Source: a virus. Taken from it: a stretch of 40,734 nt of DNA. Positions 209-19,600 of this stretch are shown one piece after another. The translations under genes and the position numbers were made by a program. Under the pieces are notes generated by a model. It searched no databases, was not told the DNA's origin, and worked only from the letters and a program-made list of their open reading frames with translations. How positions within the stretch are numbered: the stretch's first letter is position 1; every line of letters starts with the position of its first letter. The stretch lies in IMG/VR virus record IMGVR_UViG_3300049203_000077, positions 64,001 to 104,734 of that record; one strand, written 5' to 3'.

Positions 209-2704
209 ATGGCCATAAGTTATAAATCCACTGTACATAAACCTATTGATTATGTTCAGCCTGTAGACTTAAATCTTCTTGGGAAGGTACTACAGTATGA
301 ACAAGGGGAGTTTGACAAAGGTGTAAGAAATGTACAAAGTACCATAGACTCTATTGCTGCATTAGACGTGGTAAAAGACGTTGATAGACAATATCTTAAC
401 GCTAAGTTGAGTAATATGGTTAACGCTATCAATAGTATTGGTGGAGTTGATTATTCCGATCCTAATGTGCAGAATCAGATTTCAGGAATGGGTAGTCAAA
501 TCTATGGTGATGATAAGATAATCAATGCTGTGGGAAACACTAAAAAGTTTCGCTATGTGCAGAATTACTACAAAGATCTTAAAGAAAAGAAGCCTAAAGA
601 TTGGAATCAAGCTAATGAGTGGTACGATATGAATAAATTCTCAAGCTGGTTACAGGATGGACAGGTAGGGTCTTCTACTACTAGTGATGCGGGAACAGTT
701 ACTCCATATCACGATTATCAGACAGATTGGGAAAAGCTTTTTGATAAAATTGCTAACTCAGCTAATATAGAGGTACAATGGAGTGACAGAGGCTTGATGT
801 ATGTTAAAGATGGAAAGAAATATGTTTCTCCTGATCGTATTTGGGCTACAGCATCTCAAATGCTTACTCCTCAACAGCGCACACAGCTTGCTATAGAAGG
901 ACGTTACACTTATCAAGGTGTACCAATTTCTGAACTTACTAAAGCCTACGATGCTAAACTTTATGAACAAATAGGAGAGGCTACAAATGAATTAAAGGAC
1001 TATCAAACTAAGTTTAAAGGTGCTACTTCTCTCAAAGATCAACAAGACTATCAAAGACTTGTTGCTGAAAAGGAAGCGGAAGTTACTAGACTAACTGCCC
1101 CTGTCCAAAAAAGTGCTGATCAGATTAGAGAGAAACTTTACTTAGACGAGAAATTTAAGGGACTGCAAGCACGTTACGCTTTCTCGCAAGCTACTTCTAC
1201 AATGCAAGCTGCTACTGACAAGATGTTCAAACTGAAGTATGATATGGATAAAAGTAAGTTTGCCTATCAGCAACAAAAGGATCAGCTTGACAGAATGGTA
1301 GACATGGTAGACAAGGGACTTATGTGGGGTACAGATGCATTCGGTAACAGAACTGCTGTCATTGATCCTTCTAATCCACGAAACTATGCTAAGAGTAAAG
1401 GTGGTACAGGGACAGCTGCGGGAGGAGCAAATTCAATGCTCCCTATTATGGGTGGAGCAGGTGAAGAACAAACCTATACAATGACCGAGAAAGCTCTAGA
1501 CACTAGAAAGACTGCTCTAGTTCAATCAAATAATCAGCTCTTTAATAACTTCGTGAAAGACTTTGGTTGGAAGATGGGATGGACAGATGCCTTTGTTAAT
1601 GATTTTACAGATGATGGATTTCTACAAGGCAAGTTTGATGACAGAGCTGTAAAAATAGCTAAAGATTATAAGGACGCGTGGGAGGCCATGCAAAGGGGTG
1701 AGAAAGTTAACTTCGATCATGTAGATCCAATGTTTAGAAATTTCATCTCTAAATGGCAAGAAAATCAAAAAGAAATAGAAGCTATTGATAATTTCTACAA
1801 TCAAGTAGATAATCAAGTAAGAGAGAAGTATGGATTTACTGGAGCTGACATAGAAAAGGCTGCTGATTATGCTAAACTTCAACAGCAATATACTGAACTA
1901 GACAAGAAATATCCTATAACATCTGTTCAAGGAGGTGTAGTTAGAAAAAATCAGGCAGAGTACAATAAAGAGATTGCAGCTATTAAAGCAAAACAGCAAG
2001 TTCTTGGACTTGATATGAATAAATTAAATAACTACATGACTAATAGAACTGCTGAGAGAAGAGGTTTGATAGAAAGAGGTTCTATGAGATTTAATCTTCC
2101 AGGTGTCACTATTTCAGACGACAAGGAAAAGAATACAGCTAAAATGATTGCGGCTAATGCAGGAACTATGCAGTATTATGATGAAGCAGGGAATGTAGTA
2201 GGGAAAGCTACTCTAAATTCAGATAACATAGAACCTATGACAATAGGATATGATTATATAAATACAGGTGGAACTTTTTCAAGGCAGCCTGTATTAACAT
2301 TTAAATTAAAGACAGGAAGTAAAGCCGATGAGTATTCAATTAATAAAGTACCTTTATCCCCTCAACAGGCACCTCTCTTTGGGTTTGGAAGTGATATGCA
2401 AGACATTTCTGGATATAGATTTGGACTACATGCGACAGGTAAAGTGACGGATATTGGTACAACATCCGGAAACAATTATCAGTTAAAGTATGATATGAAA
2501 AAGTACAATTTAGGTGATGTAAATGATAATAGAGTGTTTGTAATTGTACATGGTAAATCAGGTCCAATATCATTATATAATACACCTTTCAATACGCCAG
2601 AGTTAGCTACTCAATATATGGAAGGTATGACAAAACTGAACTCATTCGACGACGCTATTATAGTATTAGATCAACTATCAAGAGGTCAGATATATAACAA
2701 ATAA
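209..2704 (+). CDS. Unknown virion-type protein upstream of the RNA polymerase gene
   Basis: This is an 831-aa protein with no motif that I can name. Residues about 251-375 are rich in Glu, Lys and Gln with heptad-like spacing and probably form coiled coil. A Gly/Ala-rich linker follows at about 395-420, then a second helical region and a beta-rich C-terminal third. No signal peptide is seen. The gene has its own promoter box and is followed after two bases by the 3782-aa RNA polymerase gene. In crAss-like phages the genes next to the giant polymerase genes encode tail or packaged cargo proteins, so a packaged or tail-associated protein is inferred from position and length only. The coding call itself is secure. 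Confidence 0.75.
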   Translation: MAISYKSTVHKPIDYVQPVDLNLLGKVLQYEQGEFDKGVRNVQSTIDSIAALDVVKDVDRQYLNAKLSNMVNAINSIGGVDYSDPNVQNQISGMGSQIYGDDKIINAVGNTKKFRYVQNYYKDLKEKKPKDWNQANEWYDMNKFSSWLQDGQVGSSTTSDAGTVTPYHDYQTDWEKLFDKIANSANIEVQWSDRGLMYVKDGKKYVSPDRIWATASQMLTPQQRTQLAIEGRYTYQGVPISELTKAYDAKLYEQIGEATNELKDYQTKFKGATSLKDQQDYQRLVAEKEAEVTRLTAPVQKSADQIREKLYLDEKFKGLQARYAFSQATSTMQAATDKMFKLKYDMDKSKFAYQQQKDQLDRMVDMVDKGLMWGTDAFGNRTAVIDPSNPRNYAKSKGGTGTAAGGANSMLPIMGGAGEEQTYTMTEKALDTRKTALVQSNNQLFNNFVKDFGWKMGWTDAFVNDFTDDGFLQGKFDDRAVKIAKDYKDAWEAMQRGEKVNFDHVDPMFRNFISKWQENQKEIEAIDNFYNQVDNQVREKYGFTGADIEKAADYAKLQQQYTELDKKYPITSVQGGVVRKNQAEYNKEIAAIKAKQQVLGLDMNKLNNYMTNRTAERRGLIERGSMRFNLPGVTISDDKEKNTAKMIAANAGTMQYYDEAGNVVGKATLNSDNIEPMTIGYDYINTGGTFSRQPVLTFKLKTGSKADEYSINKVPLSPQQAPLFGFGSDMQDISGYRFGLHATGKVTDIGTTSGNNYQLKYDMKKYNLGDVNDNRVFVIVHGKSGPISLYNTPFNTPELATQYMEGMTKLNSFDDAIIVLDQLSRGQIYNK

Positions 2705-2706
2705 TT

Positions 2707-5700
2707 ATGCCACAACAAGACCCAATAAAACCGGGACAAGTAACAAATCTTCCACAGAACAATTACGATCCAAATGCTGAAGCAGGTAGAGTAGTAAATA
2801 AACTTCCATATGTTGCTCCTCCAACTGCTCTTAACTTATTGTTTAATAGTACAGCTCCTACTACTGCAGAAGGTGCTAGTAAGGTGAATCCTGCTTACGC
2901 ATTATATATTAACACATTAAAGAATGCTAATGGAAAACAGGCCTTTTTAAGTCAGCCTTATTACACACCTGAGACAATAGCAGGACGATATGGGGATAAG
3001 GAAATAGGTGGTTATCATCCATATGACATGAACCTTGAAAATTGGTATGGAGATAATCAAAGCTGGTTTAATCAATGGGGAAATCGTCTTGGCAAGCTTG
3101 GAACAAAGGCAATAGGTAGCTTTGCTAATTCCTTAATGGACATTCCAAACATTATAGCTCAATCAGCAACAGGACAAATGTCTCTGGATAAGATGTGGGA
3201 TAATCCAACAAATAGTTGGGCTACTGATCTTATGGAGTGGAGTGAAAAAGCTATGCCTAATTATGAGACAAATTGGGAAAGAGAGCATCCTTTTGCTAAT
3301 CTTATTCCTATTTATGGTGCTCTTCATGGCGGTAGTGCTGCAAACAGCTGGGGCAAAGCAATAGAGAATCTTGGTTTTACTGTGGGTGCTATTGGTGGAG
3401 CTGTAGTAGAAGACTTAATTGTAGGTGGATTAACAGGCGGGGTAGGTGAAGTACCTCTTGCTGCTATGCAAATAAATAAAGCTGTTTATAAGCTAGGTAA
3501 GCTTGTTAATGCAGGAGAGGATTTCTTAGGAGCACTTAAGTCTAACATTAGAAATGCTGATGATATTGTAAAAGGACTTAAAGGAATAGATAGATTCAAT
3601 TATGCTGTTCGTCAAGGACTTTGGGGAGCTAATATGATTACATCAGGTATCTCTGAAGCTGCTTTTGAAGGTATTGAATCTTACAAAACACTATCTAAAG
3701 ACCTTCAACAAAAATATTTTGAAGAAACAGGTAAAGCTCCTTCTTTTGAAGAAAATCAAAAGATAGACGCTCTTGCTAGAGATGCTGCTAACTCTCGTTT
3801 CTTATTAAATACTGCTTTATTAGCAGCAACAAATAGTATTCAATGGGGTAATCTGTTTCGTCCTCTAAACGCTACTAAAGAACTTCTTGAAGCAGAAGCT
3901 AAACAAGGTGTACGTATAGCATTAAAGGAAGGAAGTGTGGACGCTTTCGAAGCTGTAGAACATACTTCCAGACTAGCTAAATGGGGAAAGAACCTTACCG
4001 ATAATAAAGTATCTCAAATTCTATTTGGCTCATCTTCTGAAGGATTTGAAGAAGGCGCTCAATATATTATTGAGAAAGGTATTAACGATTTTTACAAAAG
4101 GAAGTATGAAGATAAGAATATCACTCTTACTAACAACTTTTTAAAATCGTTTGGTACAGGTTTAGCTGAAACATTAGGTACTAAGGAAGGTTGGGAGAAT
4201 ATAGTTCAGGGCCTTCTAGGTGGTGCACTTTATAAAGGTGGGGAACATGCGTATTACAAGGCAAGAGGTATAAATAACAATCCTAACTACAAAAAACAAA
4301 TAGATGCTGTAATTGATGGACTAAACTCCCAATCTCTTACAGGTATATTTGAGAATAAATACGGCACTGCTGTTGAAGCTATGTCTATTCAGCAGGACTT
4401 GCAAGATGCTGCTGCTAAGAATAATGTATTTGCATATAAGAACTATAAGCACGATCAGTTTGTAAACTTTGTTTTAAGTGGTATTCAACAAAATAAGTTT
4501 GATACCCGCCTTGAACAACTTCAAGAATTAAAGAAGCTTGAGGGTTCTGAATTTGAAAAAATGTTTGGTATTCCTTCTAATACAGAGAACAAAAAAACTG
4601 TGTCTGAATATGTAGGCAAATTGGAAGAAAATGCTAAGTATATAAAGGAAATTCACAAAAGGGTATCTCGTACATTTGTTAATCCTTATCAGCTTAAAGG
4701 AACAGGTAACTACAAGAATGCTGAAGAGAAAAAGAGACAAGACGAGGAGAATGAGAAGCACATCATTTACGAGAAGGTAAAAAATGAGCTTGTTCGCTTA
4801 ATGTCTATTTCTAAGGACTCGGCAGATCGCATTAGAGATATGCATAGTCAGATTACTTCTATGCAGACTGTTGTAGACCCTTCAACTGTTATTAAGCTTT
4901 CTTCAATAGAAGGGATACAAGATCTCAAAAAGGAATATAAAGAAAAATTAAAACTTGCTGAGGAATCACTTAAGCTTGCTCCCAATGATGCTAAAAATAA
5001 AAGGGATGTTAAGTGGTATTCTAAGAAAGTATCTGAGATAGAAGATGTTACTAATGAGAAAGATGAGAAAACTCAAAATGTTAAATACAACAAATTTCTA
5101 AATGATGTATTTGATAGAACACAAAAAGAAGATAATAAGTTCTATAAATTATATGGTACTGACTCTCAGAAGTTGTCTGTAGACACTCCTTTTCCAAGAG
5201 ATGTTATTAAGGATTTAACTGATTTGGGAAAAGATATTTATTACTTACAAAAAAGGAATGAGGTTGCCGTTGATAGATATGCTAGTTTAACTACTAAAGG
5301 AGGATTTAAAGAGCACTTTGATAAAGAGGCTACTGCAAGAAAGGAGGCTAATGATTTATTAGTTAATCTACAACAACCTCAGACACAAGGACAAGCAGCG
5401 CAACAACAAGCAGCATTTAATGCTTCTCAAGTACAACAAAATCAAGCACCTACTCCTCAGCCACAAGCAGCTACTACAAATACAACAGCACAAACTCCTT
5501 CTTCTCAACCACCTACAGCAATTCCTCAACAACAAGGATATGTTGAAGAACTTGGTATAATAAAAACAGCAGACGAGGAAAGAGCTGAACTCATCACTTA
5601 CATGATTGAGGCTATTGACGAAAAGAGAGTCTTAAGTGAAATAGAAGCTGAAATCTTAGGCTTTAAGACTATTGACGATTTAAAGTTTGATAATCCTTCA

Positions 5701-8700
5701 GTTAAAGTAGAGGATTATGAAAAAATTAGAACTCAGTCAAAAAGGCACTACTACCTTCACAAAGACACCATAAAGGCTGGTAGAGAGTTCCTAGAAGAAT
5801 ATAACAAAAGACCTTCTACAATATCTAATTTAGTATCTGAGATTGAGAAGAAAAGGAAGGACGCGTTACAAGGTATTAAATTATCGGATGTACAGGTTGG
5901 AGATAAACTACAAGTTTCTTCAAACTTGTCCGGAGGATTTAAAAATAAAGATGTTGTAGTTACTAGAAGATCAAAACTGGGAGTTCAATTTGATAACGAA
6001 AACGTATGGTATAACTTTAAAAATTCTACACTTTCTATAGTTAATTTTAAAAACTATAGTCAAGAAGAAAGAATTAACGCTAAATATGATGCAGAGTTAG
6101 CTGTACTAAGAGGGGGAGCTTCTCAAGAAAGCAATGAAAATCAAGGTGGTGCGCCTCCTATCACTCCTAATGATCCACCTCCTACTACAGGAACAGGAGG
6201 ACTTAGGACTGATGACTTCATGGCAAAAGTATTTGTTCCGGGAGATTTAAAACTCTCGTTTAACAATGCTATATTCTCAGGAACTAGGGATCAAGTTAAG
6301 ACTGGAATGAGTATTCGTGTAAGACCACTGGAGCCTCAATTCCAGCAGCAATTTGATCAACAATCTGCTACAAGATCATATACACAAATGACTGGATTTC
6401 CAGGAGTATATGTGTCTAAAGCACCTGTTGATATTTCTGTTTCACACTTTAATGGTATCGAAGTGAATGAAATAGGTAAAGTAGCCTATCCAAAGAGACT
6501 TTTGTTTAGAGTAGGTAATGACTTTGTTAACATTGACAGGCTTACTCCTGAGCAATATCAACATTTCACTGGCAGGCCAGCAGCTCAACATGCTGCTGAT
6601 GTAGAAGAATATAACAAACAAGTAGCTTTTACAAACTACTTAGCTTTAAGATTTAGAAATAACAATCTACAAGAAATTACTCTCACTCCACAAGAGATTA
6701 ATGAGCTTCTTGATATTGTTATTACTTATGGAGAGTTGGACCTTATACCAGTTGGCCAAGAAAGACCATTATATAATCAGCTAAGACGCAACACTGTATC
6801 TCTTCCTATCTCAACAGGGGGAACATTAAATACAATGGTGATACTGTCTGCTCCTAAACGTCAGATGGATGAAGATGGTGTAATGGTTCGTGAAAGAATA
6901 GGAAGTATCAATCCTATCTATGGACAAAATTTCTATGATAATTCAAGTGCAGATGATAGTGTTATTTTAGATTTTATCAGTAATTCGGCTGACAGTATTA
7001 TTAAAGTGAATTCTCGTTACATAGGACTAGTATCTAAACCAGATGGTAGTTTTTCTCTTATTGCTCTACGTCCAGCAGAAATGGACACTGCTGCTAAAAC
7101 AAGTTTACTCCAAACTCTTATAGATAGATCAACAGAGTCTCTTAGGACAAACTTTGTTCCTTCTACAAAGGAGGAGTCTCCTAAGAATGTATTATTAATA
7201 GGTAATGATGAGGTTTACTATAAACTTCCAAGTGACGCTGCTAAAGACTATAATAAAGATTTCAATGACAATATAAATAATCAAGTGTTTATTTCAGATC
7301 CTAATGGTAAAGTGTGGTTTGAAATTACACTTAGTCCAATTGGAGCTCTTCGCTTGGATATTCATGAACCTAATTCTGGATATAGAAATCGTCTTATTGT
7401 TGCTCCTCAAAAGGTTGGAAAACTTGATTCTTTCCAAGCAATGATTGATGCATTTAATAATGAATTAGTAAAGAAAGAAAAAGATGATGAAACTCTCAGA
7501 GGACTAGCAATAAGACTAAACAGTAGTAACTTTAGGCAAAACATAGCTGATGATAGTAATATTCCTAATGCTGAAGCATTGGCTTCTCAACTAACTGCTG
7601 CTACATCTACAGAGGTATTTAAGAACGGAACAATGAAACTTGTTCCTGATACTGGAAATGTAGCATCAGCTTATAAAAATGCAAGAGGTAGCACACAACA
7701 GGCTACTCCTGAACAAACAGCTCAAGAACAGCCTCCTGTTGCTCCTGAAACTCCAGCTACTCCAGCAATGCCTCAAGGGCTTACTTCTCTTACAGAGCAA
7801 CAACCTCAGGAGTATGGTACACTAGAAGATGTGTTTGGTCCCCAGATTCCTACTGGAATGTTTCAAGGTATGACAGGAGTTCCTGTAGATGAATCAGGAA
7901 ATCCTATTGCACCTATAGAGACTGCTCCTCAAAATCAAGAGGAAGCACAAGGAATTGTTTATACATCTGTTAAGGAAGCATTAAATGCTAATGACATAGA
8001 CTATAGAACAGTAGAAGGTGAAACTCAGTTCTTTAATATTAGTACAGGCCAATTACTTGATCTTCCTGGAGTAGCTCCAAAGGACTTAGCTGATTCTATG
8101 GGACTTACTATTGCACCTCAACAAAGACCTCAGAGAGGTACAGGATTTGACTTTATGCGTTCTGAGCAAAATCTATCTACATTAAACAACATGGTAGATT
8201 TTGAGAATGCTAGAGTGTACATCAATTCTATTCTTCCCTCATTTATTAGTGTGGAGGACATGGATGCTGTAATGAATAAGATTAGAGAGCAAGGAATTGA
8301 AAATCCTGAGAAAAATGTTTGGGGAGCTTTCAAGGATGGGATCATCTATCTTAATAAGCAAGCTCCATCAGCAGGACAAGAGTATCATGAAGCATTCCAT
8401 GCTGTATTTAATTCATTCATTCCTCAAGAAGAACAAAAGTCTCTTCTTAACTATGCTAATGATGAGCTTTACAAAAAGCTTAAGAAAGAAGGAAAATCTA
8501 TTAGAGAATATATTAATGAACAGCGTAAACAAGGAGTATGGACAAATATTTCTGATACCCATGCAGCTAATAAAGCAGCTGAAGAATGGATGGCAGAAAA
8601 GTTTCGCTCATGGAAAAATAAAAAAAAGAACGCAGGTATTCTTCAAAGACTATTTGATTTAATTGATAGATTTTTTAGATGGATAACTAGAAATCAAAAT

Positions 8701-11700
8701 GATCTTAATGCCCTATTCCACAAAATAGATACAGGAGGGTATAAATATTCTAATATAGCTGCTAACTCCTTCACTCAAGAGACAACTGAAGACACTAATA
8801 TTCAGGAGTTTAAATTCATGCTTGTTCCTGCTCGTCCTACGCAAATGGCAGTCGGTAGAGGAACTATTGAAGTAAAGAGAAATCTTGATGCTAAGACATC
8901 TACACAAGTGATTCAAAATGTAGCTGCTTACTTTGAGATGTACAAGAGAATGGGAGAGTACCAGCTGTCTGATGAAAAGTTATTAGACCAAATATTGGAC
9001 GACCTAAAAACTACATACAGCGCAGATAATCCTCTTTATGAAGGAATGACTCAAGAGCAATTAAATATAATAGCTAACTCTGACGAAAACTATATTTATT
9101 CAAATGACGAGACAAGAGCTATTATAAAAGAAGGTGCTAAAGAGTACATTAATTCAATGAATTATTTTGAACAATTCCAGTCTGAGGAACTTGAAGATCA
9201 AGAACAGGATACAGGTGCACCAAGAACTGGATATGATAATAGCTCTGAGAATATTGGAGGATTTAGCTCTCTTCCAGGAATGGTTCGTCATTACTTAGGG
9301 TTTACATCTTATCCTGTAACTAATAGATTTGGTCAATCTACATTAGCTAATGGTAAGCCCGTAATAGCTACAATTGATGCTGTATCAGTTTACTATGGAT
9401 TACTACGTGCTACAGCTAATATCAATGATCCTGTCAGATTCTTTCAGAGAATGATACGCTTTGCTGATAACAATGAGCAGAGTCGTCACTTTGTTAAGAA
9501 ATTCCTCGTTGATACAGGACTTAACGAAGACGCATTAAATGAAGGTAGAATTGAGGCTACCAGAAATAAAGCCTTAGTTGAGCAGGTAAGAAAAGCATTT
9601 AATAAGTATCGTATTGATTATATATTTACAGAGTATGACATGAAGAAGGGTAAATATCGCTCTTATCATGCAAATCGTAGAAATGTAGAAAATGTACAAT
9701 TCGATAAATGGTCTAATGTATTTATTGATGGATACTCTGAGATGAGTGCTGACCAGCAGGCTACTATACGCAGAACTATTGATAACATAAGAAACAGATA
9801 CTTTGATCCAAGAAGGGCTACAAAGAGAACAGCTGATGAAATCAATGTGATAGTTACTGAAGTAAGGAATGCTCTACTTTCAGTAGGTATGCAACTGTCA
9901 TTCGACTATATAAGATATTCATTATTAAGTATTAATGCTAAAAGATTTGATACTCTAAATAAAGAATATAAAGCTCAGGGAGCAGAATTACAGGTTGATG
10001 ATCCACAAAACACATTTATTTCTAAAGCTGATTATAACTATGTTCAGGTAATGAAGATTGCTGATGAAGTTACTTTGAGTAAAGAGTTTATGGATGAGCT
10101 TTCTAGGTCTTTATCAGCTAATGAGAACCCTTATTTTCGTGTATTAAGAGAAGGTGAAGATATTGATGAGGAAGAAGAAAAGTCAAAGGGTGGTATGGTG
10201 ACACGTATCTCAAATGTCGCTAAGGGTAATGCTTTATTTGATGAAACTGTAGGTGAGTCTTCTTATATGAATGCTGATGATAAATTAGTATTTGCTCACC
10301 AAGATGGTACATTTAATGTTAAGGCCTCTTATGCACTTAGAGATGCTGAAACCAGAAGAAGACTTAGAGAGACTGGTATAAGAAATGAGGCTTCTGCAGC
10401 TACAGATTCCTACGATTCTGCATGGTTAACAGATAACTACTTGTTAAACTCTGCTTCATTTGAAGCAGTAGCAGATAATCTATTGTTTCAGAATATAGAT
10501 GGTATTCGTGCTGTAGAAACAAATAAAGAAGGTAAAGTAATTACAGAGGAGTTTAGAGACCAAAAAGAAGGTGTTACCTATGGTTCTTATTCTCCTAGAG
10601 AATTCTTTATTAACCTTACAAATATGTATATCTCTTATGCTAAAGTTCAGAAGACAGCAGCAGGAGATGTTATTACTACTCCTCATCTAATTCGTGTACT
10701 TGAAGCTTCTAAAACAGCTAACACTGTAAACCTACCTATCAACTTAGATGTTTATAGAGAAGGTACAGTAACAGAGAAAACTGCAGATATTCTTTTTAAG
10801 GAGGTGCAAAAAGAGTTCAACAGAATAAAAAGAGTGCAGGGTGAAGTAGGAACTTTAACAGATAGTATAGTGGAAAATTATCATACAGGTAGTTTTGAAG
10901 ATGATGGATTTACTGTAAGAAAGGGTTATCGTGGCCTGAAGTTTACAGATAACATGACTTCCTTATTGACTAAATCTACAGCTAATCTACTTGAAAGGAA
11001 AGCTCGTACAAACCTAGAACTATCTCAAGAAGATGTTGCTACTATTAAACAAGAGATTAAAAACTCTTTAAATAAGATGGTAGATGACGCTATTGATCTG
11101 ATGGTAGCTGAAGGTATTATTAAGATAGGACCTAAAGGTTCTTATCAAAACGTACTTCTTCATCGCGAGTTCTTTGTTCAAGGTAAAGATAGTTTAGGAC
11201 TGAACTTACAAAGTGTTGATAAAGGAGTAAAATTTAAAACGAATATAGGACATGTTCTCATAAATGACTACATTAATACATTAGCGTATAATCAGATTCT
11301 TCATGGTGATCCTGCGTTATCGCTAAAGAATGACGGTGGTATTGATGCTGTAAAACGTGCCAAGGGTGACAATGCTGCAATCACTTCTATTAGAACTGAT
11401 TTGACAGCTCCAGAGCTTGGAATTACTGAAGCATTTACACATTCAAGTGTAGCTATTTTTAAGGAACCTGTTGCTCCAGATGGAACAAAGGTAGCCGATG
11501 CTCAAATGTATGCTACTGTACGTGCTCTTCGTTATACATTATGGGGACTTGGTAGACTTTCTCCACGTTTAGCTAGATTTTTAGACGCCTTAGAAAGAGG
11601 AGATGATATTCACAACTTAACAGATTCAAATGGTGAAACTTATGATGGAGTGTTTGATGATAGTAAAGGCATCTTAAGATGGGATGAAATGACTAACTCT

Positions 11701-14055
11701 TTAAAACTCGTATTTAAAGATGGTAAGACATACTACAAAATGTCTGTAGTTATTCTTCAACCAAATCTTACTGCTAGAAGGAATGAGCAAGGTGAGTGGA
11801 TAACTCGTCCGGGATGGGAAACCCTCGATAGTCTTAGAAGAAAGATGGAGAAAGACAGAATACATTTTGCTGCTCCAGAATCAGCTTCTAAAATGATGAC
11901 TTTAGATGTATCTAAAGCTGAAGACTTCTCAGACTTAAAAGGACATTTAGTTGATAATCAGTATTTTGGACTACAAACAGAAAATCCTTCTAATAAGCTT
12001 GAAATTACTACACCTACTCAGTTATTACAATTGATTGATTCTGAGCAAGATGATAGTGTAGAAGTAGTGTTCCAAGGCACAAGAACTAGTGTTGGAGAAG
12101 TTAAGAGAATTTATCAAGAGTCTGTAGCTCAGAAAGTAGTAAACTCTTATGATACAGCTCTTAATGAAATATACGATATTACAGAGTTTAATGAAGATAT
12201 GGATACTTTGATTGTTAATGGTCATGTAACTCCTCGTCTTGCTAAATTCTATCAGCGTATATCTTCTACATTAGAGTCATCAGGTAGTGATGCGCAATTA
12301 TTAGACTTCTTCTCATTAGATGAGAATGGAAATATTAGGTTTAACGCTAACCTATCAGCAATTAAAACTAAATCTCAACAGCTTTATCTGTCATACTTTT
12401 CTAAAGGAGTTCTTTCTCAGAAGAATCCTGGTTATACTGTAGCTCTGTTCTCAGGTATTGATACTAAAACTTCTAGAATAGCTAAAAGGGTTGAGAATGG
12501 AGTTGTTACAGAATGGGCTTACGTTAGAAGAGATGAATGGGACGCTAACCATAATGGGGTGAGAGATCAACAGATACTTGGTTCTAAAGATCAAGTGACT
12601 GAAGAAGGGCAATTATTCTTGGATGAACTTCAATACATGGTCCCTAAATATAATTATGAGGGAGAAGTAGAAGGGTATTATTCAGAAATGATGCTTCCTG
12701 CTCATTTTAAAGAGCTTCTTGGTCTTAGACCAGGGGATGAAATTCCTGATGCTATAGCTTATATGTTTGGTGTACGTATTCCTTCTCAAGATAAACACTC
12801 ATTCATTTCTTTAAAACTAATAGACTTCTTACCAGCTAACTTAGGGTCTACAGGTATGTTCCCTAAGGAGTTGATTAAACTATCAGGTGCTGACTTTGAC
12901 ATTGATAAACTCTTTATTACTAGATATGACTTCTATCTTACTAAAGATGCAGATGGCAATCCTAAATTTAATAAATATGGTGATGCTACGAATGATAGGG
13001 GTAGATGGATGGAGTATAAGAGATGGATGTTAGAAAACAATAAGTCTCTTAAAAACACTGTAAGAGATATTCTTTTACAAGACGCTACTTATCAGGAGCT
13101 TAAAGATGAGCAGCAGGTATTAAGAGAGCTTCAGATGGAAGAAGCATTTGACGATGCTGCTAGACAATTAAAAAAGCAACTTTATGACAGAGCTGTTTCT
13201 CAAGCTTTAGCGTATCTAAAACTTCCTTCTACACTAGAGCAGTTTACAGAAGCCTCAAGAACTAAAGAACTAAATAATGGTGTTCTGAATAATAGAATAC
13301 TAGATAGTTATCGTACTCTTTTAACAAATAGGGGAATGCATGAAATTGCTGCTACACCTGCTAGCTTAACAGCTCTACAGGACATTCAGGATGAGAATGA
13401 CATTACGTTGAGAGATGCTCAAGGAAATAAAATAGGCTCTGTTTTTCAAAAGAAAACAAATTATCCAGTAGATAGTTTAATGGGTAAATTCTATGGATTT
13501 AAGAATAACACTACAGGCAAAAACAATATTGGTATTGATGTTAATGCTAACTTAATATATTCAGTAGCTAATAAAGGAGATATATCCTTAACAGACCCTG
13601 AAGAAGGATTTGAAATGGACAGTAAGAAGTTTTCTAGCTTTTCTGGAAATAGAGAATATAATTTAGAAACTGAGCAGTTTGATGGAAAACGTACAAATGA
13701 CGTTCTTTCTACATTAATTACAGCTGCTACAGATGAGGCTAAAGAACAGTTAAATGCCTTGTATAACTTAGGAGTGGATGCTCTGAAAGTAGTAAACTAC
13801 TTGGTAGCTCTTAAAGTTCCTTTAAAGACAGCCATCTACTTTGTAAACCAGCCTTCTATTCGTAACTACTTGGATATTAAGGCTGTAAAGCAAAATACAA
13901 TTCAAACTAAAGAAGAAGAGAATCTCTATAGAGATGCCTTCAGGCAAGAAGCTGTATTAAAAACTCAAAAACAAATTAAGGATTATAAGGACATGTCTGA
14001 CAGCGAGCTATTCAGCATGTTTGAGGCTAATAGTTTAGTGGAGGTAAGATGTTAA
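2707..14055 (+). CDS. Giant crAss-like virion RNA polymerase with zincin domain
   Basis: This 3782-aa protein is interpreted as the virion-packaged DNA-dependent RNA polymerase of crAss-like phages, ejected to transcribe early genes. The catalytic metal-binding motif DFDID lies at residues 3396-3400 within SGADFDIDKL, and ESASKMM with Lys3062 resembles the lysine region found upstream in single-chain polymerases. A zincin metallopeptidase motif HEAFH is at 1894-1898, with a candidate third ligand in EEWMAE (1959-1964). Residues about 222-250 are hydrophobic and Gly-rich, as in proteins that cross or line membranes during ejection. Residues 600-880 look coiled-coil. Three low-complexity Pro/Gln/Thr linkers (about 887-945, 1138-1165, 1662-1705) separate blocks. 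As I recall, the phi14:2 homologue gp66 is about 2180 aa, so this one is unusually long. It begins two bases after the preceding stop codon. Confidence 0.88.
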   Translation: MPQQDPIKPGQVTNLPQNNYDPNAEAGRVVNKLPYVAPPTALNLLFNSTAPTTAEGASKVNPAYALYINTLKNANGKQAFLSQPYYTPETIAGRYGDKEIGGYHPYDMNLENWYGDNQSWFNQWGNRLGKLGTKAIGSFANSLMDIPNIIAQSATGQMSLDKMWDNPTNSWATDLMEWSEKAMPNYETNWEREHPFANLIPIYGALHGGSAANSWGKAIENLGFTVGAIGGAVVEDLIVGGLTGGVGEVPLAAMQINKAVYKLGKLVNAGEDFLGALKSNIRNADDIVKGLKGIDRFNYAVRQGLWGANMITSGISEAAFEGIESYKTLSKDLQQKYFEETGKAPSFEENQKIDALARDAANSRFLLNTALLAATNSIQWGNLFRPLNATKELLEAEAKQGVRIALKEGSVDAFEAVEHTSRLAKWGKNLTDNKVSQILFGSSSEGFEEGAQYIIEKGINDFYKRKYEDKNITLTNNFLKSFGTGLAETLGTKEGWENIVQGLLGGALYKGGEHAYYKARGINNNPNYKKQIDAVIDGLNSQSLTGIFENKYGTAVEAMSIQQDLQDAAAKNNVFAYKNYKHDQFVNFVLSGIQQNKFDTRLEQLQELKKLEGSEFEKMFGIPSNTENKKTVSEYVGKLEENAKYIKEIHKRVSRTFVNPYQLKGTGNYKNAEEKKRQDEENEKHIIYEKVKNELVRLMSISKDSADRIRDMHSQITSMQTVVDPSTVIKLSSIEGIQDLKKEYKEKLKLAEESLKLAPNDAKNKRDVKWYSKKVSEIEDVTNEKDEKTQNVKYNKFLNDVFDRTQKEDNKFYKLYGTDSQKLSVDTPFPRDVIKDLTDLGKDIYYLQKRNEVAVDRYASLTTKGGFKEHFDKEATARKEANDLLVNLQQPQTQGQAAQQQAAFNASQVQQNQAPTPQPQAATTNTTAQTPSSQPPTAIPQQQGYVEELGIIKTADEERAELITYMIEAIDEKRVLSEIEAEILGFKTIDDLKFDNPSVKVEDYEKIRTQSKRHYYLHKDTIKAGREFLEEYNKRPSTISNLVSEIEKKRKDALQGIKLSDVQVGDKLQVSSNLSGGFKNKDVVVTRRSKLGVQFDNENVWYNFKNSTLSIVNFKNYSQEERINAKYDAELAVLRGGASQESNENQGGAPPITPNDPPPTTGTGGLRTDDFMAKVFVPGDLKLSFNNAIFSGTRDQVKTGMSIRVRPLEPQFQQQFDQQSATRSYTQMTGFPGVYVSKAPVDISVSHFNGIEVNEIGKVAYPKRLLFRVGNDFVNIDRLTPEQYQHFTGRPAAQHAADVEEYNKQVAFTNYLALRFRNNNLQEITLTPQEINELLDIVITYGELDLIPVGQERPLYNQLRRNTVSLPISTGGTLNTMVILSAPKRQMDEDGVMVRERIGSINPIYGQNFYDNSSADDSVILDFISNSADSIIKVNSRYIGLVSKPDGSFSLIALRPAEMDTAAKTSLLQTLIDRSTESLRTNFVPSTKEESPKNVLLIGNDEVYYKLPSDAAKDYNKDFNDNINNQVFISDPNGKVWFEITLSPIGALRLDIHEPNSGYRNRLIVAPQKVGKLDSFQAMIDAFNNELVKKEKDDETLRGLAIRLNSSNFRQNIADDSNIPNAEALASQLTAATSTEVFKNGTMKLVPDTGNVASAYKNARGSTQQATPEQTAQEQPPVAPETPATPAMPQGLTSLTEQQPQEYGTLEDVFGPQIPTGMFQGMTGVPVDESGNPIAPIETAPQNQEEAQGIVYTSVKEALNANDIDYRTVEGETQFFNISTGQLLDLPGVAPKDLADSMGLTIAPQQRPQRGTGFDFMRSEQNLSTLNNMVDFENARVYINSILPSFISVEDMDAVMNKIREQGIENPEKNVWGAFKDGIIYLNKQAPSAGQEYHEAFHAVFNSFIPQEEQKSLLNYANDELYKKLKKEGKSIREYINEQRKQGVWTNISDTHAANKAAEEWMAEKFRSWKNKKKNAGILQRLFDLIDRFFRWITRNQNDLNALFHKIDTGGYKYSNIAANSFTQETTEDTNIQEFKFMLVPARPTQMAVGRGTIEVKRNLDAKTSTQVIQNVAAYFEMYKRMGEYQLSDEKLLDQILDDLKTTYSADNPLYEGMTQEQLNIIANSDENYIYSNDETRAIIKEGAKEYINSMNYFEQFQSEELEDQEQDTGAPRTGYDNSSENIGGFSSLPGMVRHYLGFTSYPVTNRFGQSTLANGKPVIATIDAVSVYYGLLRATANINDPVRFFQRMIRFADNNEQSRHFVKKFLVDTGLNEDALNEGRIEATRNKALVEQVRKAFNKYRIDYIFTEYDMKKGKYRSYHANRRNVENVQFDKWSNVFIDGYSEMSADQQATIRRTIDNIRNRYFDPRRATKRTADEINVIVTEVRNALLSVGMQLSFDYIRYSLLSINAKRFDTLNKEYKAQGAELQVDDPQNTFISKADYNYVQVMKIADEVTLSKEFMDELSRSLSANENPYFRVLREGEDIDEEEEKSKGGMVTRISNVAKGNALFDETVGESSYMNADDKLVFAHQDGTFNVKASYALRDAETRRRLRETGIRNEASAATDSYDSAWLTDNYLLNSASFEAVADNLLFQNIDGIRAVETNKEGKVITEEFRDQKEGVTYGSYSPREFFINLTNMYISYAKVQKTAAGDVITTPHLIRVLEASKTANTVNLPINLDVYREGTVTEKTADILFKEVQKEFNRIKRVQGEVGTLTDSIVENYHTGSFEDDGFTVRKGYRGLKFTDNMTSLLTKSTANLLERKARTNLELSQEDVATIKQEIKNSLNKMVDDAIDLMVAEGIIKIGPKGSYQNVLLHREFFVQGKDSLGLNLQSVDKGVKFKTNIGHVLINDYINTLAYNQILHGDPALSLKNDGGIDAVKRAKGDNAAITSIRTDLTAPELGITEAFTHSSVAIFKEPVAPDGTKVADAQMYATVRALRYTLWGLGRLSPRLARFLDALERGDDIHNLTDSNGETYDGVFDDSKGILRWDEMTNSLKLVFKDGKTYYKMSVVILQPNLTARRNEQGEWITRPGWETLDSLRRKMEKDRIHFAAPESASKMMTLDVSKAEDFSDLKGHLVDNQYFGLQTENPSNKLEITTPTQLLQLIDSEQDDSVEVVFQGTRTSVGEVKRIYQESVAQKVVNSYDTALNEIYDITEFNEDMDTLIVNGHVTPRLAKFYQRISSTLESSGSDAQLLDFFSLDENGNIRFNANLSAIKTKSQQLYLSYFSKGVLSQKNPGYTVALFSGIDTKTSRIAKRVENGVVTEWAYVRRDEWDANHNGVRDQQILGSKDQVTEEGQLFLDELQYMVPKYNYEGEVEGYYSEMMLPAHFKELLGLRPGDEIPDAIAYMFGVRIPSQDKHSFISLKLIDFLPANLGSTGMFPKELIKLSGADFDIDKLFITRYDFYLTKDADGNPKFNKYGDATNDRGRWMEYKRWMLENNKSLKNTVRDILLQDATYQELKDEQQVLRELQMEEAFDDAARQLKKQLYDRAVSQALAYLKLPSTLEQFTEASRTKELNNGVLNNRILDSYRTLLTNRGMHEIAATPASLTALQDIQDENDITLRDAQGNKIGSVFQKKTNYPVDSLMGKFYGFKNNTTGKNNIGIDVNANLIYSVANKGDISLTDPEEGFEMDSKKFSSFSGNREYNLETEQFDGKRTNDVLSTLITAATDEAKEQLNALYNLGVDALKVVNYLVALKVPLKTAIYFVNQPSIRNYLDIKAVKQNTIQTKEEENLYRDAFRQEAVLKTQKQIKDYKDMSDSELFSMFEANSLVEVRC

Positions 14056-14093
14056 CAATAATCATCACTTCCACTTACCTTCATAAAAAAGTG

Positions 14094-14116
14094 TAATTAA
14101 ATTAGTATATTTGCTT
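14094..14116 (+). promoter_or_regulatory. Promoter box before the 859-aa gene (TATATTTG)
   Basis: TATATTTG at 14106-14113 matches TAnnTTTG. The surrounding bases, AATTAGTATATTTGCTT, match the box at 174-197 except for one T. The ATG at 14118 starts only four bases after the element, so the transcription start should fall at or beside the start codon, which would make a leaderless or nearly leaderless mRNA. Confidence 0.6.
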
Positions 14117-14117
14117 T

Positions 14118-16697
14118 ATGGCTTGTACTTATGTCGTAAAAAATAGTGCTGGAGAGGAAATCTCATTTAATAGTCAAGGGGAAGCTCTTCAATATCTCAA
14201 GGATAATAATATAGCTGAGTCTAGCGTTAAAGGAGAACCTGCACGTAACACTGCTACGTTAGCTAATGTGTTACGTCAAGTAGCTTTTGGAGAAAATAAT
14301 TATTCTCCTGAACAACTGCGTGTCTTCCAAGAACAAATGTTGGATGAGTTTATAAGAATGGAAGAACAATCTCAGTTCTTCTATAAGATGGGTAGTCCCA
14401 TTGCCCTTACAAAAGGTTTGGGAAAGAGCTTTGATCAGATGGCAGGAGTTGTTAAAAATCTTACTGATCTTGGTATTGGACTTCCTGCTGATACTGAAAT
14501 AGATGCTCCGTTTGATGTGCGATATCTTCTTTCAGGAGAAGACAGATATAGATCTGCTGATCAAAATCCTTATTATCATAAGATTACTGCGAATAACATT
14601 AAGATAATGAAGGATGTTTATTCTTTGAGTAAGACAATGTTTATGGAGCAAGCTCCTTCCTTTATGAATATATCAGATAGAGTGATATCAAATCTTAAAG
14701 GAGGTCTGGCTGATGACATTGATAAAGTGAGAGAGATTAAAGATGATTTGGCAGCCTTCTTACAAATAGCTGCTTACAAACAGTGGATAGACGTAAATGA
14801 TAAGAAAACAAGTACATTACATAACAGTCTTATTTATGATACTGAAGGAACTACTTCTACTGTTGTAGATATTGTTAAAGAAGCTATTGCACTCTCTCCT
14901 GATAATACTTTCTTAAAATTTATTCTCCCTGTAAGCACCACTGTAAAAATAGGAAAAAGAAAGGTAAGAAACATAAATAATAAGGATATTATTAATACTA
15001 TCGAAGGTAAAACTCGTGGTAAAATAGAACCAGACCTTATTGCTAACATGATGGACTCATTCTCAGAACTTTATCTAAATCCTAGAACTCAATATCATGC
15101 TAAAGCACTATTTGATTACCTTATAGTGAAAGATGGTTTGATGTATAGAAATAAGTCGTTTATTAAAATGATTCCTACATTCATGTTCAAGGAGATGTCT
15201 AATGCTACTGATCTAGCTACAGAACTTCTCTCCCTTTCTCAAAGAGCTGAATTTAGTAGGTTTCTTAGAAAGATAGACACTCTGGAAATAGTAGATTCTG
15301 AAGGAAACTATAGAAGCTATTTCTCAGATGCTGATAGACAGCAATTCAATGATCTGTTTAGAAATAATGACCTTTTAGGTATAAAAAATAAATTATATGA
15401 AAAAGTTTTTGGTCTTAACTACAATCAACTTTATAATAGGTTTGAACAGATTTATGCTACAGATGCCCGGTATCAGTTTAATTTGGAGCTAATTAGGACT
15501 AAGGTAAAACCTGCGACAGGTCCAGCAAGGACGGCTAACGGTATAGCCTTTGCGGAGGATGCTGGAGTTCGTTATTTACACGTAGGTATGTTTACTGAGA
15601 AATTTAGAGCTACAGAAGAAGGTAGTGAAGAAAGATCTAAAGTGTTTAGGGAAACAATGGAAGATCTTGCTGCGGCTGGATTTAACAGTGTAAAAGTTGG
15701 GGAAGATAAAACAAATCTTCAATTTAAGAAATTTATTCGTATAAGAAGAAGTGCAGGAACATCACCTACAGGGGAACAAAAAATTGTATATGTTACGTAT
15801 CAACTTGTAAATGTTGAAAGACAAGGAGCAAATAATAGAACACAAGCTTTCTCAGGAGCAGCTATGACTGCAGAAGGTGAGTCTATTCCTAGAGGTGTTT
15901 ATGCTGTTTATGCTCCTGTAGATATTGTAGGTACATCAAACTCTACAGGCGTAGCTAATTTAGGACCGCGTCCTACAAAAGAACAAGTGATTCAAACTCT
16001 CAATAATAAGTTAAGAGGTGGTGGACAAAATCCTCCAGCAGCACCTACTACTGAGCCTTCTGGTCCTACTGGTGGTACACCTATAAGCGGTGGAACCTAT
16101 TCAGGACAAATAACTTCTCTTAGTGAGAATCAAGTATTTGTGTTTGGTTCTAATCCACTAGGTGTAAATGGAAATCCTGATAAAGGAACTGGTGGAGCAG
16201 CTCTTTCAGCTCTTAAAAATGGATGGGTGAAACAAGGTGAGAAAATGGACAATAAGGTGTCTGATTCTGGGAAGGCTTATGGTTTAACAACCGTAACTGC
16301 TCCCGGAACTAAAAGAAGTATGACTGCTGAACAGATAACAAGCGGCATTGAGAAACTCTACAAACTTGCTTATGGTAACCCTCAGAAACAATTCCTTATA
16401 GCTTATATGGGTAAGACAGGAAATAATCTGAATGGGTATTCTAACCAAGAGCTTGCAGATATGTTCTCAGCATTTGTTATTCCACCAAATATTATTTTTG
16501 AGAAAGACTTTAATACACTAATTACTAGAAAGACTCCTACTTCTAAAACAGAATCAACAGGAATAGTACAAGGAGGTATATTTGGAGGAATGCAACAAAT
16601 GCCTTTTGATCCTAATGATCTTTCAGGATTTGATGCAGGTTTTTTTACTGATAGTAGTAGTATTGATGACACATTAGACAAACTAGATGACTGTTAA
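14118..16697 (+). CDS. Large virion-type protein, possible polymerase C-terminal part, with macro-like domain
   Basis: This 859-aa protein lies directly after the polymerase gene. Residues about 60-620 are helical and of no named family; because the polymerase ends only 382 residues after DFDID, this segment may supply the rest of the polymerase (inference). A Gly/Pro/Thr linker at about 634-660 leads to a module at about 672-800. That module begins NQVFVFGSN and contains GTGGAAL, YGLTTVT and FLIAYMGKTG. It resembles the FVFGSN-type macro-domain relatives found in many phages, which are thought to bind ADP-ribose-like ligands. The N-terminus (MACTYVVKNS) resembles that of the next protein (MKCSVIRNS). 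No signal peptide is seen. The macro assignment is from pattern memory and is moderate; the virion role is inferred from context. Confidence 0.65.
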   Translation: MACTYVVKNSAGEEISFNSQGEALQYLKDNNIAESSVKGEPARNTATLANVLRQVAFGENNYSPEQLRVFQEQMLDEFIRMEEQSQFFYKMGSPIALTKGLGKSFDQMAGVVKNLTDLGIGLPADTEIDAPFDVRYLLSGEDRYRSADQNPYYHKITANNIKIMKDVYSLSKTMFMEQAPSFMNISDRVISNLKGGLADDIDKVREIKDDLAAFLQIAAYKQWIDVNDKKTSTLHNSLIYDTEGTTSTVVDIVKEAIALSPDNTFLKFILPVSTTVKIGKRKVRNINNKDIINTIEGKTRGKIEPDLIANMMDSFSELYLNPRTQYHAKALFDYLIVKDGLMYRNKSFIKMIPTFMFKEMSNATDLATELLSLSQRAEFSRFLRKIDTLEIVDSEGNYRSYFSDADRQQFNDLFRNNDLLGIKNKLYEKVFGLNYNQLYNRFEQIYATDARYQFNLELIRTKVKPATGPARTANGIAFAEDAGVRYLHVGMFTEKFRATEEGSEERSKVFRETMEDLAAAGFNSVKVGEDKTNLQFKKFIRIRRSAGTSPTGEQKIVYVTYQLVNVERQGANNRTQAFSGAAMTAEGESIPRGVYAVYAPVDIVGTSNSTGVANLGPRPTKEQVIQTLNNKLRGGGQNPPAAPTTEPSGPTGGTPISGGTYSGQITSLSENQVFVFGSNPLGVNGNPDKGTGGAALSALKNGWVKQGEKMDNKVSDSGKAYGLTTVTAPGTKRSMTAEQITSGIEKLYKLAYGNPQKQFLIAYMGKTGNNLNGYSNQELADMFSAFVIPPNIIFEKDFNTLITRKTPTSKTESTGIVQGGIFGGMQQMPFDPNDLSGFDAGFFTDSSSIDDTLDKLDDC

Positions 16698-16699
16698 AT

Positions 16700-19600
16700 A
16701 TGAAATGTAGCGTAATAAGAAATAGTAATAATGAAATTCAACAAGTATTGGCTTCAAATGGTGAGGAGTCAATACTTTTTAATATCCTTGATAGAGTATT
16801 GAATGATAAGGAAAAGGCTCTAAGACTATGGGCTACCACTTATACTCCTGACTTCAAGAAGAAATTCAAAGGAGAACGAGATGAGAATGGCGAACCTCTT
16901 TTAAGAGAGATTTCCTCTATGGTTGAAATGGATAATCCTAATGCTAGTGACAGCATCTATTTTCAGAAAGGAGATAACTCTTCATTTGAACTATTCGGAA
17001 AGATTCAAACAATTGCTCAGAAGCTAAATAACAGATTCAATATTCCCTATAGTATTATTAATGATCCCAGCAATCCTAATAGAGGATGGTTTGGGGTTAA
17101 TGGTGTGGTTATTAATTTAGCTCATGCTAAGAAAGATACAGTGTTTCATGAATATTTACACCCATTTATTCTAGCTGTACAACAGCAGAATCCCTTTCTT
17201 TATAAAGACTTATTAGTTCAACTTAGCAGTGATTTAGAAGGAATTAAAGTAATAGGTGAAGTAACTAGAAAATATCCTGAGCTTACTAAAGAGCAACAAA
17301 TGAATGAAGCTTTAGTAGAGTATTTAGGAAAACTATCAGCTCAAAAATATAACACTCCAAAATCTCCTTTTAATCGTTTTATTAACTGGTTAAAATCTTT
17401 ATTTAAGAAGATACAAATTGATCCTAAGAACTTTAGGATTGATATGACTCTTGATGAAGTTGCTGATTTAATAGTAGATGATATTTATGTAGCCGACTTA
17501 CGAGCTATTCTTCAAGATGCTAAGATACAAACGGTATATCAAAAGCCTGACACAGACTTAACATATGAGTCTGTTTATCAAAGAATTAAAGATAAAGTAT
17601 CTATCCTAAACAGAACAATTAAGAATAGAAAGAAAGGTGACCAATTTAAGGAAGATATTAGTGTGCTTAATGAAATCATCCAAAATCAGGATGAGATAAC
17701 GTCTATAAATAACTTTATATCAAACTCAATATACTATATTGACGCAGCTAAGAAAAGATTTGAGACTTTAAGAGATTCTGTAAGAAAAGCTGATCAGCTA
17801 ACAAAGGATCAACTTTCTTATAATTTGAATATTCTTGGTGAAATTCAGCAGCTTTTGAACGTATACAACTCATTAGATAGTGTCAAATCTCTTTTGTTTA
17901 GGGAGGGTATTGGATACGACAATCCAAGATTTCAAGAACTTGCTACAGCTATAGATCAAAAAAATCAGATTATTGAGGATTTTAAATCATTCAGCCTCAC
18001 CTATCTAACAGAATGGTTATTTCCATATCTTGAGCCTACAAATAGAAACTTAGAAGCTCAAGGCAAACAAAACATGATGATTACTAAAGATCAATTCAGA
18101 GAGCAATTAGTAATGGCTTTAAGAGATATTTCTGCTGCTGGATATTGGTTAGGTACAACTATCAATAGTCGTGATCCTGTATCTGCTGCCGTAGGATTGG
18201 CTCTTAAAGATGTGGTGTATGATAATCATCTAAAAGACCTTGATACAAAGAAAGAGCTTACAAATGAATATGAAAGGGCAAGAGGTTCAGCTCTTTACAA
18301 AAGCTCCAAAGACGAAGAGACTTTTAACAAAGAGTTCTTAAGAGAAGTTGAAGTATGGGAGAAAGTGGGAGTTGATCCTGAAACAGGTGAAGATAAATAT
18401 GATTACAGAAGACGTTTAGCCTTTTATCAAGAGTACCAACTGGATCAATTTGACAAGGCCAAGAAAGAATTTTATAGACAACTTGGGCCTAAACCTACTA
18501 ACGATGCAAAAGCTTTAAGAGCTTGGAACAAAGCCCAAAGTGAATGGTATGCTCAGAATACACAAATTCACCCTGATTATCAAAGAATTATAAGTGAGAA
18601 AAGAAGAACTCTTACTAAGAGACAATTTGAAGAGTGGTGGTTAACAAATACTAAAGAGATAGATGAATTGGATTATGGATATGGTAGAAAACTCTCTCAT
18701 TATTATGGAAGAAGAGTATTACAGAACTCTTTTAACCCAACAAAAGGAACATTTCGTGCTCTTTCCGGTGAGCTTATTAGGCCTGCGGAAAAATACAAGG
18801 ATAGGAAGTTTTCTACTCTTATGAATAATGCTTATTATAGGAAACTCTATAATTCTTATAAAGAAGCTAATGACAAACTTGGAAGTTTTGGACTTAAATA
18901 TGGTATTATTCCACAGCTATCTAAAGGACAAAATGCTTTTTCTGATTTAGAATGGAAAGATGGAGTTAAGAAAAATCTAGGGAAAGCCTGGAAAGGAGTG
19001 AAGGATTCTATTACGGCTAACTTTGATGAGGAAAAAACTGTTCAAAGACAAGATGGTGCTGAGGTTAAGAAAGTGCCGGTTTACTACACAACAATGTTAA
19101 ATCCAAGTGATCTTAAACTAGATTTACTTGAAGGTGTTCTAAAGTATAGTCAGATGGCAAATAACTACTCTACTATGACTGAAATTGAGCCTAATATTAT
19201 TGTTCTTAAAACTGTACTTAATGGAGACTTTAATCTAGGTATTAAAGGTAGAGATGTAGCTAAAACAAACTCTAAGGGTATTCAAGTATTCAATGCTATT
19301 ACTAAGAAAGTGGTTCCTAAGATGGCGCGTGAAGACATGCTGAATAATCGTTTAAACGAGTTTATTAATGACATTGTTTACGGAGATGCAGAGTTTGAAC
19401 AAGCTATTAATATGGGTGGAAGAGAAGTATCTTTAAACAAGCTATCTAATAAGGTGGCACTACTTACAGCATTACAAAACATGGCGGTTAACGTAAATGG
19501 AGGTATAAGTAACGTTATTGTAGGTAACTTTAACAATACTATTGAAGCTATGGGTAGACGCTTCTATTCAGCAAAAGACTATGCTTGGGCTCAAGGAGTA

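Follow-up and report, generated by a model that had tools for sequence, protein, structure and literature searches.

The window analysed here is the whole 40,734-nucleotide stretch of DNA, which spans positions 64001-104734 of a virus record 104,734 bases long, and the cargo-block features described below lie on its plus strand. An intact open reading frame at 2707-14055, designated ORF3782, encodes 3782 amino acids, in agreement with a preliminary description of this DNA. It is directly preceded by a gene for an 831-aa cargo-type protein (209-2704), which contains no cysteine and ends without one, and is followed by ORF859 (14118-16697; 859 aa) and ORF1318 (16700-20656; 1318 aa). A second IMG/VR contig of 128,945 bp showed 0 differences from the window over 24,052 bp. 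This contig represents the same virus and is not an independent sample, and the identity makes a local misassembly of the ORF3782 region unlikely.

The 3782-aa protein had no match in the Pfam, PHROGs or NCBIfam HMM libraries, and a phmmer search against the PDB returned only a match to a low-complexity linker. Comparison with annotated Crassvirales proteins was informative: residues 109-760 match crAss001 gp47 (E=1e-24), as do residues 1871-2016 (E=2e-6), while residues 3126-3749 match p-crAssphage gp44 and residues 3292-3423 match crAss001 gp50. Iterated profiles delimited a gp47 N-terminal module at residues 94-761 (2986-4989; homologous to residues 70-787 of crAss001 gp47), a zincin domain at residues ~1828-2025 and a polymerase core at residues 3160-3772. 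The N-terminal and central parts of a two-barrel virion RNA polymerase occupy residues ~2050-3782 (8854-14052) and include the catalytic motif DFDID at residues 3396-3400 (12892-12906). This motif lies in the context GYRxP..GxDFDxD, of which R, P, S and G.DFD.D are invariant among 15 aligned phages. A profile of the window clade built without phi14:2 finds the solved structure of the phi14:2 polymerase, 6vr4_A (E=1.5e-14), and a model of the core and tail of an unsplit relative, L091, matches the same structure (E=9.3e-20, TM 0.61). As judged by these matches, ORF3782 is a crAss001 gp47-like cargo protein fused to the first ~1,730 residues of a virion RNA polymerase of the phi14:2 type. Homologues of this polymerase in phi14:2 and crAss001 are known to be packaged in the virion and to transcribe early genes (PMC7886860, PMC10172136). 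ORF1318 is a homologue of crAss001 gp49 (E=4e-45) and phi14:2 gp76. ORF3782 is thus the first, and ORF1318 the last, of three polypeptides of one crAss-like phage cargo thread of ~6,000 residues, with gp47-like plus zincin, RNAP and gp49-like modules. Apart from its unusual split, the locus is typical of an already known cargo family.

The preliminary description regarded the protein as unusually long and gave phi14:2 gp66 as having roughly 2180 aa. The latter length is right, as gp66 (gp077 in KC821624) has 2180 aa, but ORF3782 does not stand out for its size. The fusion of gp47 with the polymerase is common, and in its unsplit form it is longer, at 4,300-5,000+ aa among relatives and reaching 5,643 aa in chains that also include gp49 (4,300-5,600+ aa in all). 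In the GenBank Suoliviridae cr55_1 and cr50_1, the gp47-polymerase fusion has 4,551 and 4,774 aa, respectively. The polymerase core had likewise been assigned to ORF3782, which holds for the part bearing DFDID at residue 3396, but the core is incomplete and its remainder is encoded by the next gene. ORF3782 ends 386 aa past DFDID, and most of the other 79 loci of a first survey run on for 950-1,600 aa, truncations at contig edges apart. A tail profile made from unsplit relatives was matched in two adjacent stretches, positions 77-294 by ORF3782 (E=2e-51) and positions 301-809 by ORF859 (E=6e-73). Hence, no single polypeptide of the window includes the complete polymerase, and ORF859 is a separate chain forming its C-terminal part. 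In the predicted structure of L091, the cut maps to a site flanked by two helices (model residues ~779-825). Residues 673-798 of ORF859 (16134-16511) form an A1S_2505-family domain (NF049995, E=6.9e-13, 48.8 bits against a cut-off of 45). The same domain is found in the C-terminal part of the cr50_1 fused polymerase and near the N-terminus of the cr112_1 polymerase, and these differing placements indicate that it moves around within polymerase chains.

The 62-nt gap between ORF3782 and ORF859 holds a near copy of a promoter-like block located upstream of the cargo operon. Copy 1 (140-200; ..TTACCTTTACAAAATAATATAATTAAATTTAGTATATTTGCTT..) precedes the first cargo gene and includes TAnnTTTGC, and copy 2 (14057-14119) reaches the start codon of ORF859. 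The local alignment of the two copies scored 63, as compared with 26 for the next best on the same strand and 33 for that on the other strand, and the exact sequence TTAGTATATTTGC occurs only twice in the 104.7-kb record, once in each block. The -7 element in Bacteroidota is TAnnTTTG, which we take the blocks to fit. The blocks would accordingly be candidate promoters, and the presence of one in the gap suggests that ORF859 is probably transcribed on its own. A hairpin at the split (z=-1.9) is too weak for a terminator or a frameshift signal. It might be supposed that the break at 14055-14118 reflects an error in sequencing, a frameshift, or an intron interrupting a polymerase gene that is in fact whole, given that introns and recoding are known in Crassvirales (PMC7886860) and that, contig-edge truncations apart, all loci of the first 80-locus survey except the window virus and its identical copy continue well past this point. 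However, two assemblies are identical at the break, the gap carries the copy of the cargo-operon block, homology is contiguous across it, and both new ends bear the cysteine caps typical of the family (see below), which makes an artefact or intron highly improbable.

Three linkers and a zincin motif noted in the preliminary description are present in ORF3782. Linker 1 (residues 882-958; 5350-5580) and linker 3 (residues 1653-1718; 7663-7860) are composed mainly of Pro/Gln/Thr, and linker 2 (residues 1139-1179; 6121-6243) of Pro/Thr/Gly. The zincin domain (residues 1828-2025; 8188-8781) contains HEAFH at 1894-1898 and EEWMAE at 1959-1964. The linkers had been proposed as joints between cargo modules, at which the chain might be cut. 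However, in 56 dereplicated fused proteins the three linkers are neither conserved nor, in most relatives, rich in Pro/Gln/Thr, and no conserved cleavage sites were found at module joints. The linkers are lineage-specific, and all three belong to the gp47-like half, with none separating the zincin from the polymerase. As far as module joints can be read from sequence, these are the cysteine-capped chain ends and not the linkers.

The zinc site, which the preliminary description allowed might prove incomplete, comprises HExxH and a downstream third ligand. In 56/56 fused proteins, H1894, E1895, H1898 and E1959/E1960 are invariant; A and mostly D or E come next. This invariance argues for activity, and the zincin is probably an active metallopeptidase. 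Its model is a confident one (pLDDT 83), and a Foldseek search against the PDB gave no match with E below 2.5 and no solved zincin. Identity as a Pro-Pro endopeptidase, tempting given the Pro-rich linkers, was rejected because the profile match (E ~0.3) is at chance level. Loss of the zincin from most fused relatives, as first indicated by a regular expression that allowed a short spacing before the third ligand, was also rejected, since a profile search showed the opposite. The motif is retained where gp47 and the polymerase are separate genes (HEAFH in crAss001), and profiles did not detect it in phi14:2 gp78 or in the Leptolyngbya phage Lbo-JY46, both with separate genes. Freeing the polymerase is therefore not an obvious general function of the zincin. 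It may have a role when gp47 and RNAP are fused and their joint cannot be opened through a disulfide.

These data bear on the earlier view that the polyprotein processes itself, with the zincin cutting at the Pro/Gln/Thr linkers in maturation or after ejection. In favour of this view are the intact signature and the lack, in fully fused threads, of any other means of separating the parts. Against this, the linkers are unconserved and placed before the zincin, and the domain is kept in genes that are already separate and undetected in two such phages. Furthermore, the bands of ~150, 270 and >300 kDa in the published crAss001 gel, unassigned in the accessible part of that report, are compatible with uncut gp49, gp47 and gp50 (PMC6235969). 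We consider self-processing at the linkers quite unlikely.

The three window chains are almost devoid of cysteine. The only cysteine of ORF3782, absent from the preliminary description, is its last residue, Cys3782 (codon 14050-14052). ORF859 has two, Cys3 (MACTY..; 14124-14126) and the last residue, Cys859 (16692-16694), and the sole cysteine of ORF1318 is Cys3 (MKCSV..; 16706-16708). Together these are 4 cysteines against ~80 expected from the other genes of the record, which contain 13.5 Cys per 1000 residues, and a generally low cysteine content of the phage was rejected as the cause on this ground.

The same arrangement was found in the reference phages. The phi14:2 polymerase gp66 (gp77 below; PDB 6VR4) resembles that of the window in having DFDID and a homologous core and C-terminal region, and it is flanked by gp78 and gp76, the counterparts of gp47 and gp49. 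Their cysteines are C1797 of 1797 residues in gp78, C3 and C2179 of 2180 in gp77, and C3 in gp76. All three are separate chains, whereas the window has a gp47-polymerase fusion and a polymerase divided between two chains, and a zincin, not detected in gp78, is present in ORF3782. In phiCrAss001 (Steigviridae), the virion cargo proteins gp47, gp50 and gp49 comprise the same three modules as the window, with the HEAFH zincin and terminal cysteines: C2339 of 2341 residues in gp47, C5, C1334 and C2404 of 2412 in gp50, and C5 in gp49. The three crAss001 chains are encoded on two strands, while those of the window are on one strand with a different pair of breaks. In p-crAssphage, gp45 (‘RNAP associated protein fused to zincin protease’) is a zincin-bearing protein directly before the polymerase, as in the window, and gp44 is a polymerase fused to a neighbour. 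Cysteines flank the single break there (gp45 ..SCM, gp44 MSC..), but the p-crAssphage fusion is of polymerase and gp49, and that of the window is of gp47 and polymerase. No cysteine is present in crAss001 C2 (gp46), phi14:2 gp79 or phi14:2 gp81. The N4 virion RNA polymerase is T7-like and belongs to a different polymerase class. Like the window polymerase, N4 gp50 (3500 aa; L331 10524-21026) is giant and injected, but it is a single chain and so has no joints; gp50 and the neighbouring virion proteins gp51 and gp52 contain zero cysteines. Injected cargo in general may be purged of cysteine. In Thermus phage P23-45, a long-tailed phage, gp96 is a two-barrel virion RNAP fused to a virion protein (PMC10770324); the partner is the tail tape measure, unlike the gp47-like partner in the window.

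The occurrence of terminal cysteines was surveyed across Crassvirales in 323 loci from GenBank records and four alignment-based IMG/VR scans. Loci were read again with TAG=Q or TGA=W where this was clearly better, and profiles for gp47N, zincin, RNAP core and gp49 were applied. A cysteine was present within the last six residues of 174 of the 188 dereplicated RNAP-containing chains (1.6 expected; ~105-fold) and at positions 2-6 of gp49 in 163 of 176 (1.3 expected; 128-fold). Counted by position, cysteines 0-5 residues from the end numbered 175 over the 188 RNAP-containing chains, and those at residues 3-6 numbered 162 over the 176 gp49 chains. The next best enrichment of any other residue was 1.8-fold for K at the RNAP C-ends and 2.3-fold for P at the gp49 N-ends. 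At the outer ends of the thread, no cysteine was found in the last 25 residues of gp49 (0/191) or in the first 25 residues of gp47 (0/34).

Adjacent genes were then scored as tagged pairs when a cysteine was present both in the last eight residues of the upstream product and in the first eight of the downstream product. Both tags were present in 235/256 adjacent same-strand pairs of the cargo block versus 2/147 outside it (Fisher p~2e-83, with pairs not dereplicated). After dereplication, both tags were present at 165/176 RNAP/gp49, 45/49 gp47/RNAP and 5/6 gp47N/zincin-RNAP breaks, and in 2/100 controls. The untagged remainder consists mostly of chains with a cysteine a few residues further in, mis-called starts and frameshift-like fragments. 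In a few TAG=Q Suoliviridae, gp49 has the N-terminal cysteine, yet the last eight residues of the upstream chain have none. Hence, the crassvirus thread is encoded by one to four genes, with break points that vary, nearly every genuine-looking cut is flanked by cysteine on both sides, and cysteine is otherwise largely purged from the thread chains. This pattern amounts to a strong and general rule for the whole family, and one open to testing. The rule can also correct start calls and flag frameshifts in metagenomic genomes; at three loci (L012 11209-24417, L014 10624-23361 and L035 13080-17306), the called start lies upstream of an MxC or MxxC start.

Natural rearrangements of the thread were examined for their effect on the cysteines. 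Among eight loci with fully fused three-module threads, seven have zero cysteines in the available sequence, and the eighth has three internal cysteines and none at the ends. The site of the break varies: it lies inside gp47 (L236, L150, L174-L178 and Lbo-JY46, the last with a gp47N chain that has a terminal Cys and is followed by a further chain), at the gp47/RNAP boundary, within RNAP itself, as in the window, or at the RNAP/gp49 boundary. The polymerase-internal cut of the window has its own cysteine pair, at the copy of the cargo-operon promoter-like block. Additional links also occur, for instance in L305 and in the four-chain (three-break) L145, in which the internal links have a cysteine at each end. 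In 13/13 loci in which gp47 is encoded on the opposite strand from RNAP, its C-terminal cysteine is kept, which excludes gene junctions, whether at the DNA level or during translation, as the cause; an origin of the cysteines in translational coupling at gene junctions was rejected on this basis. In a tree of 188 polymerases, changes between the fused and split states numbered at least 7 for gp47-RNAP and at least 3 for RNAP-gp49. A phylogenetically corrected sign test was not significant, there being few pairs, and no independent pair went against the cysteine rule.

Lbo-JY46 (L006 24496-32742), which is recorded on a cyanobacterium, has a gp47/gp49 cargo block with cysteine caps and, in the RNAP position, a 2748-aa chain without a recognisable DFDxD. 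It looked like the closest named relative of the N-terminal module, but for the latter reason it was used for break and cysteine evidence only.

The cysteine pattern is established, and from it we infer a bond: the best explanation, and in our judgement a likely one, is that disulfides would link the three chains of the cargo thread head-to-tail in the virion, and that the reducing cytoplasm would release them. The facing terminal cysteines would form a disulfide in the mature, oxidised virion, so that chains encoded by separate genes would behave like one polyprotein. Given the order of the modules in the fused proteins, the linkage order would be gp47-RNAP-gp49. The thread would be packaged and threaded from N to C through the narrow tail in a fixed order and a 1:1:1 ratio. 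Reduction in the host cytoplasm would then separate the chains, allowing folding of the polymerase and transcription of early genes. With internal cysteines lost, incorrect pairings would be avoided.

The crAss001 virion has disulfides in the tail and contains gp47, gp49 and gp50 as cargo, the ejection of which is thought to proceed partly unfolded via a channel of <50 Å (PMC10172136). In the accessible text of the same study, which covers mass spectrometry of reduced and unreduced crAss001, nothing was found on cargo disulfides (PMC10172136), and the published virion gel was reducing (PMC6235969). Open-access full texts, which describe giant ORFs, fusions and tail disulfides, were found to contain no mention of the terminal cysteines.

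Other fates of the terminal thiols can be envisaged: they could bind a metal or another partner instead, a chain with cysteine at both ends could cyclise, or gp47 could pair directly with gp49. In particular, the cysteines may constitute a non-covalent or metal-mediated joint, sharing zinc or another metal, or a packaging recognition tag, with no disulfide formed. The pairing rule and the position in flexible ends require only that two ends meet, and virion assembly takes place in the reducing cytoplasm, both of which suit such a joint. However, each end has a single cysteine and no other residue is clearly enriched, which makes a four-ligand metal site unlikely. The position of the cysteine also shifts by several residues, unlike in a folded motif, and its purging elsewhere fits avoidance of disulfide exchange. 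A metal-mediated joint or a tag is therefore considered unlikely.

Extending the disulfide-joined thread to the family, we find it fairly likely that the crassvirus transcription machinery is delivered as one covalent, redox-labile polyprotein. A peptide bond and a terminal Cys-Cys bond would be interchangeable in it, and gene boundaries would thus be free to move; the chains would stay connected while the virion is oxidised, be drawn through the tail one after another in fixed sequence and come apart in the reducing cytoplasm of the host. For crassviruses, the commonest viruses of the human gut, a covalent, reversible thread, if true, would go far to explain how very large folded enzymes leave the phage head via a channel of <50 Å with the correct order and ratio. 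It would also explain the free fusion and splitting of polymerase genes, the stripping of cysteine from injected cargo and the separation of the parts inside the cell. The polymerase is of an established type; the joint, should the bond be demonstrated, would be categorically new. It would represent a new means of assembling and opening polyproteins that needs no protease, and would offer a principle for designing them.

Other genes of the window include one for a 1365-aa probable tail protein (25238-29335), which has a cysteine-rich N-terminus (MSKSRVCKKNCSC) and a weak match to rhamnogalacturonidases (E=4e-8, with a score far below cut-off). On the minus strand, a phage RecA (30144-31166; 447 bits) and a B12-dependent ribonucleotide reductase, NrdJ (35177-37819), are encoded, both identified with scores above the cut-off.
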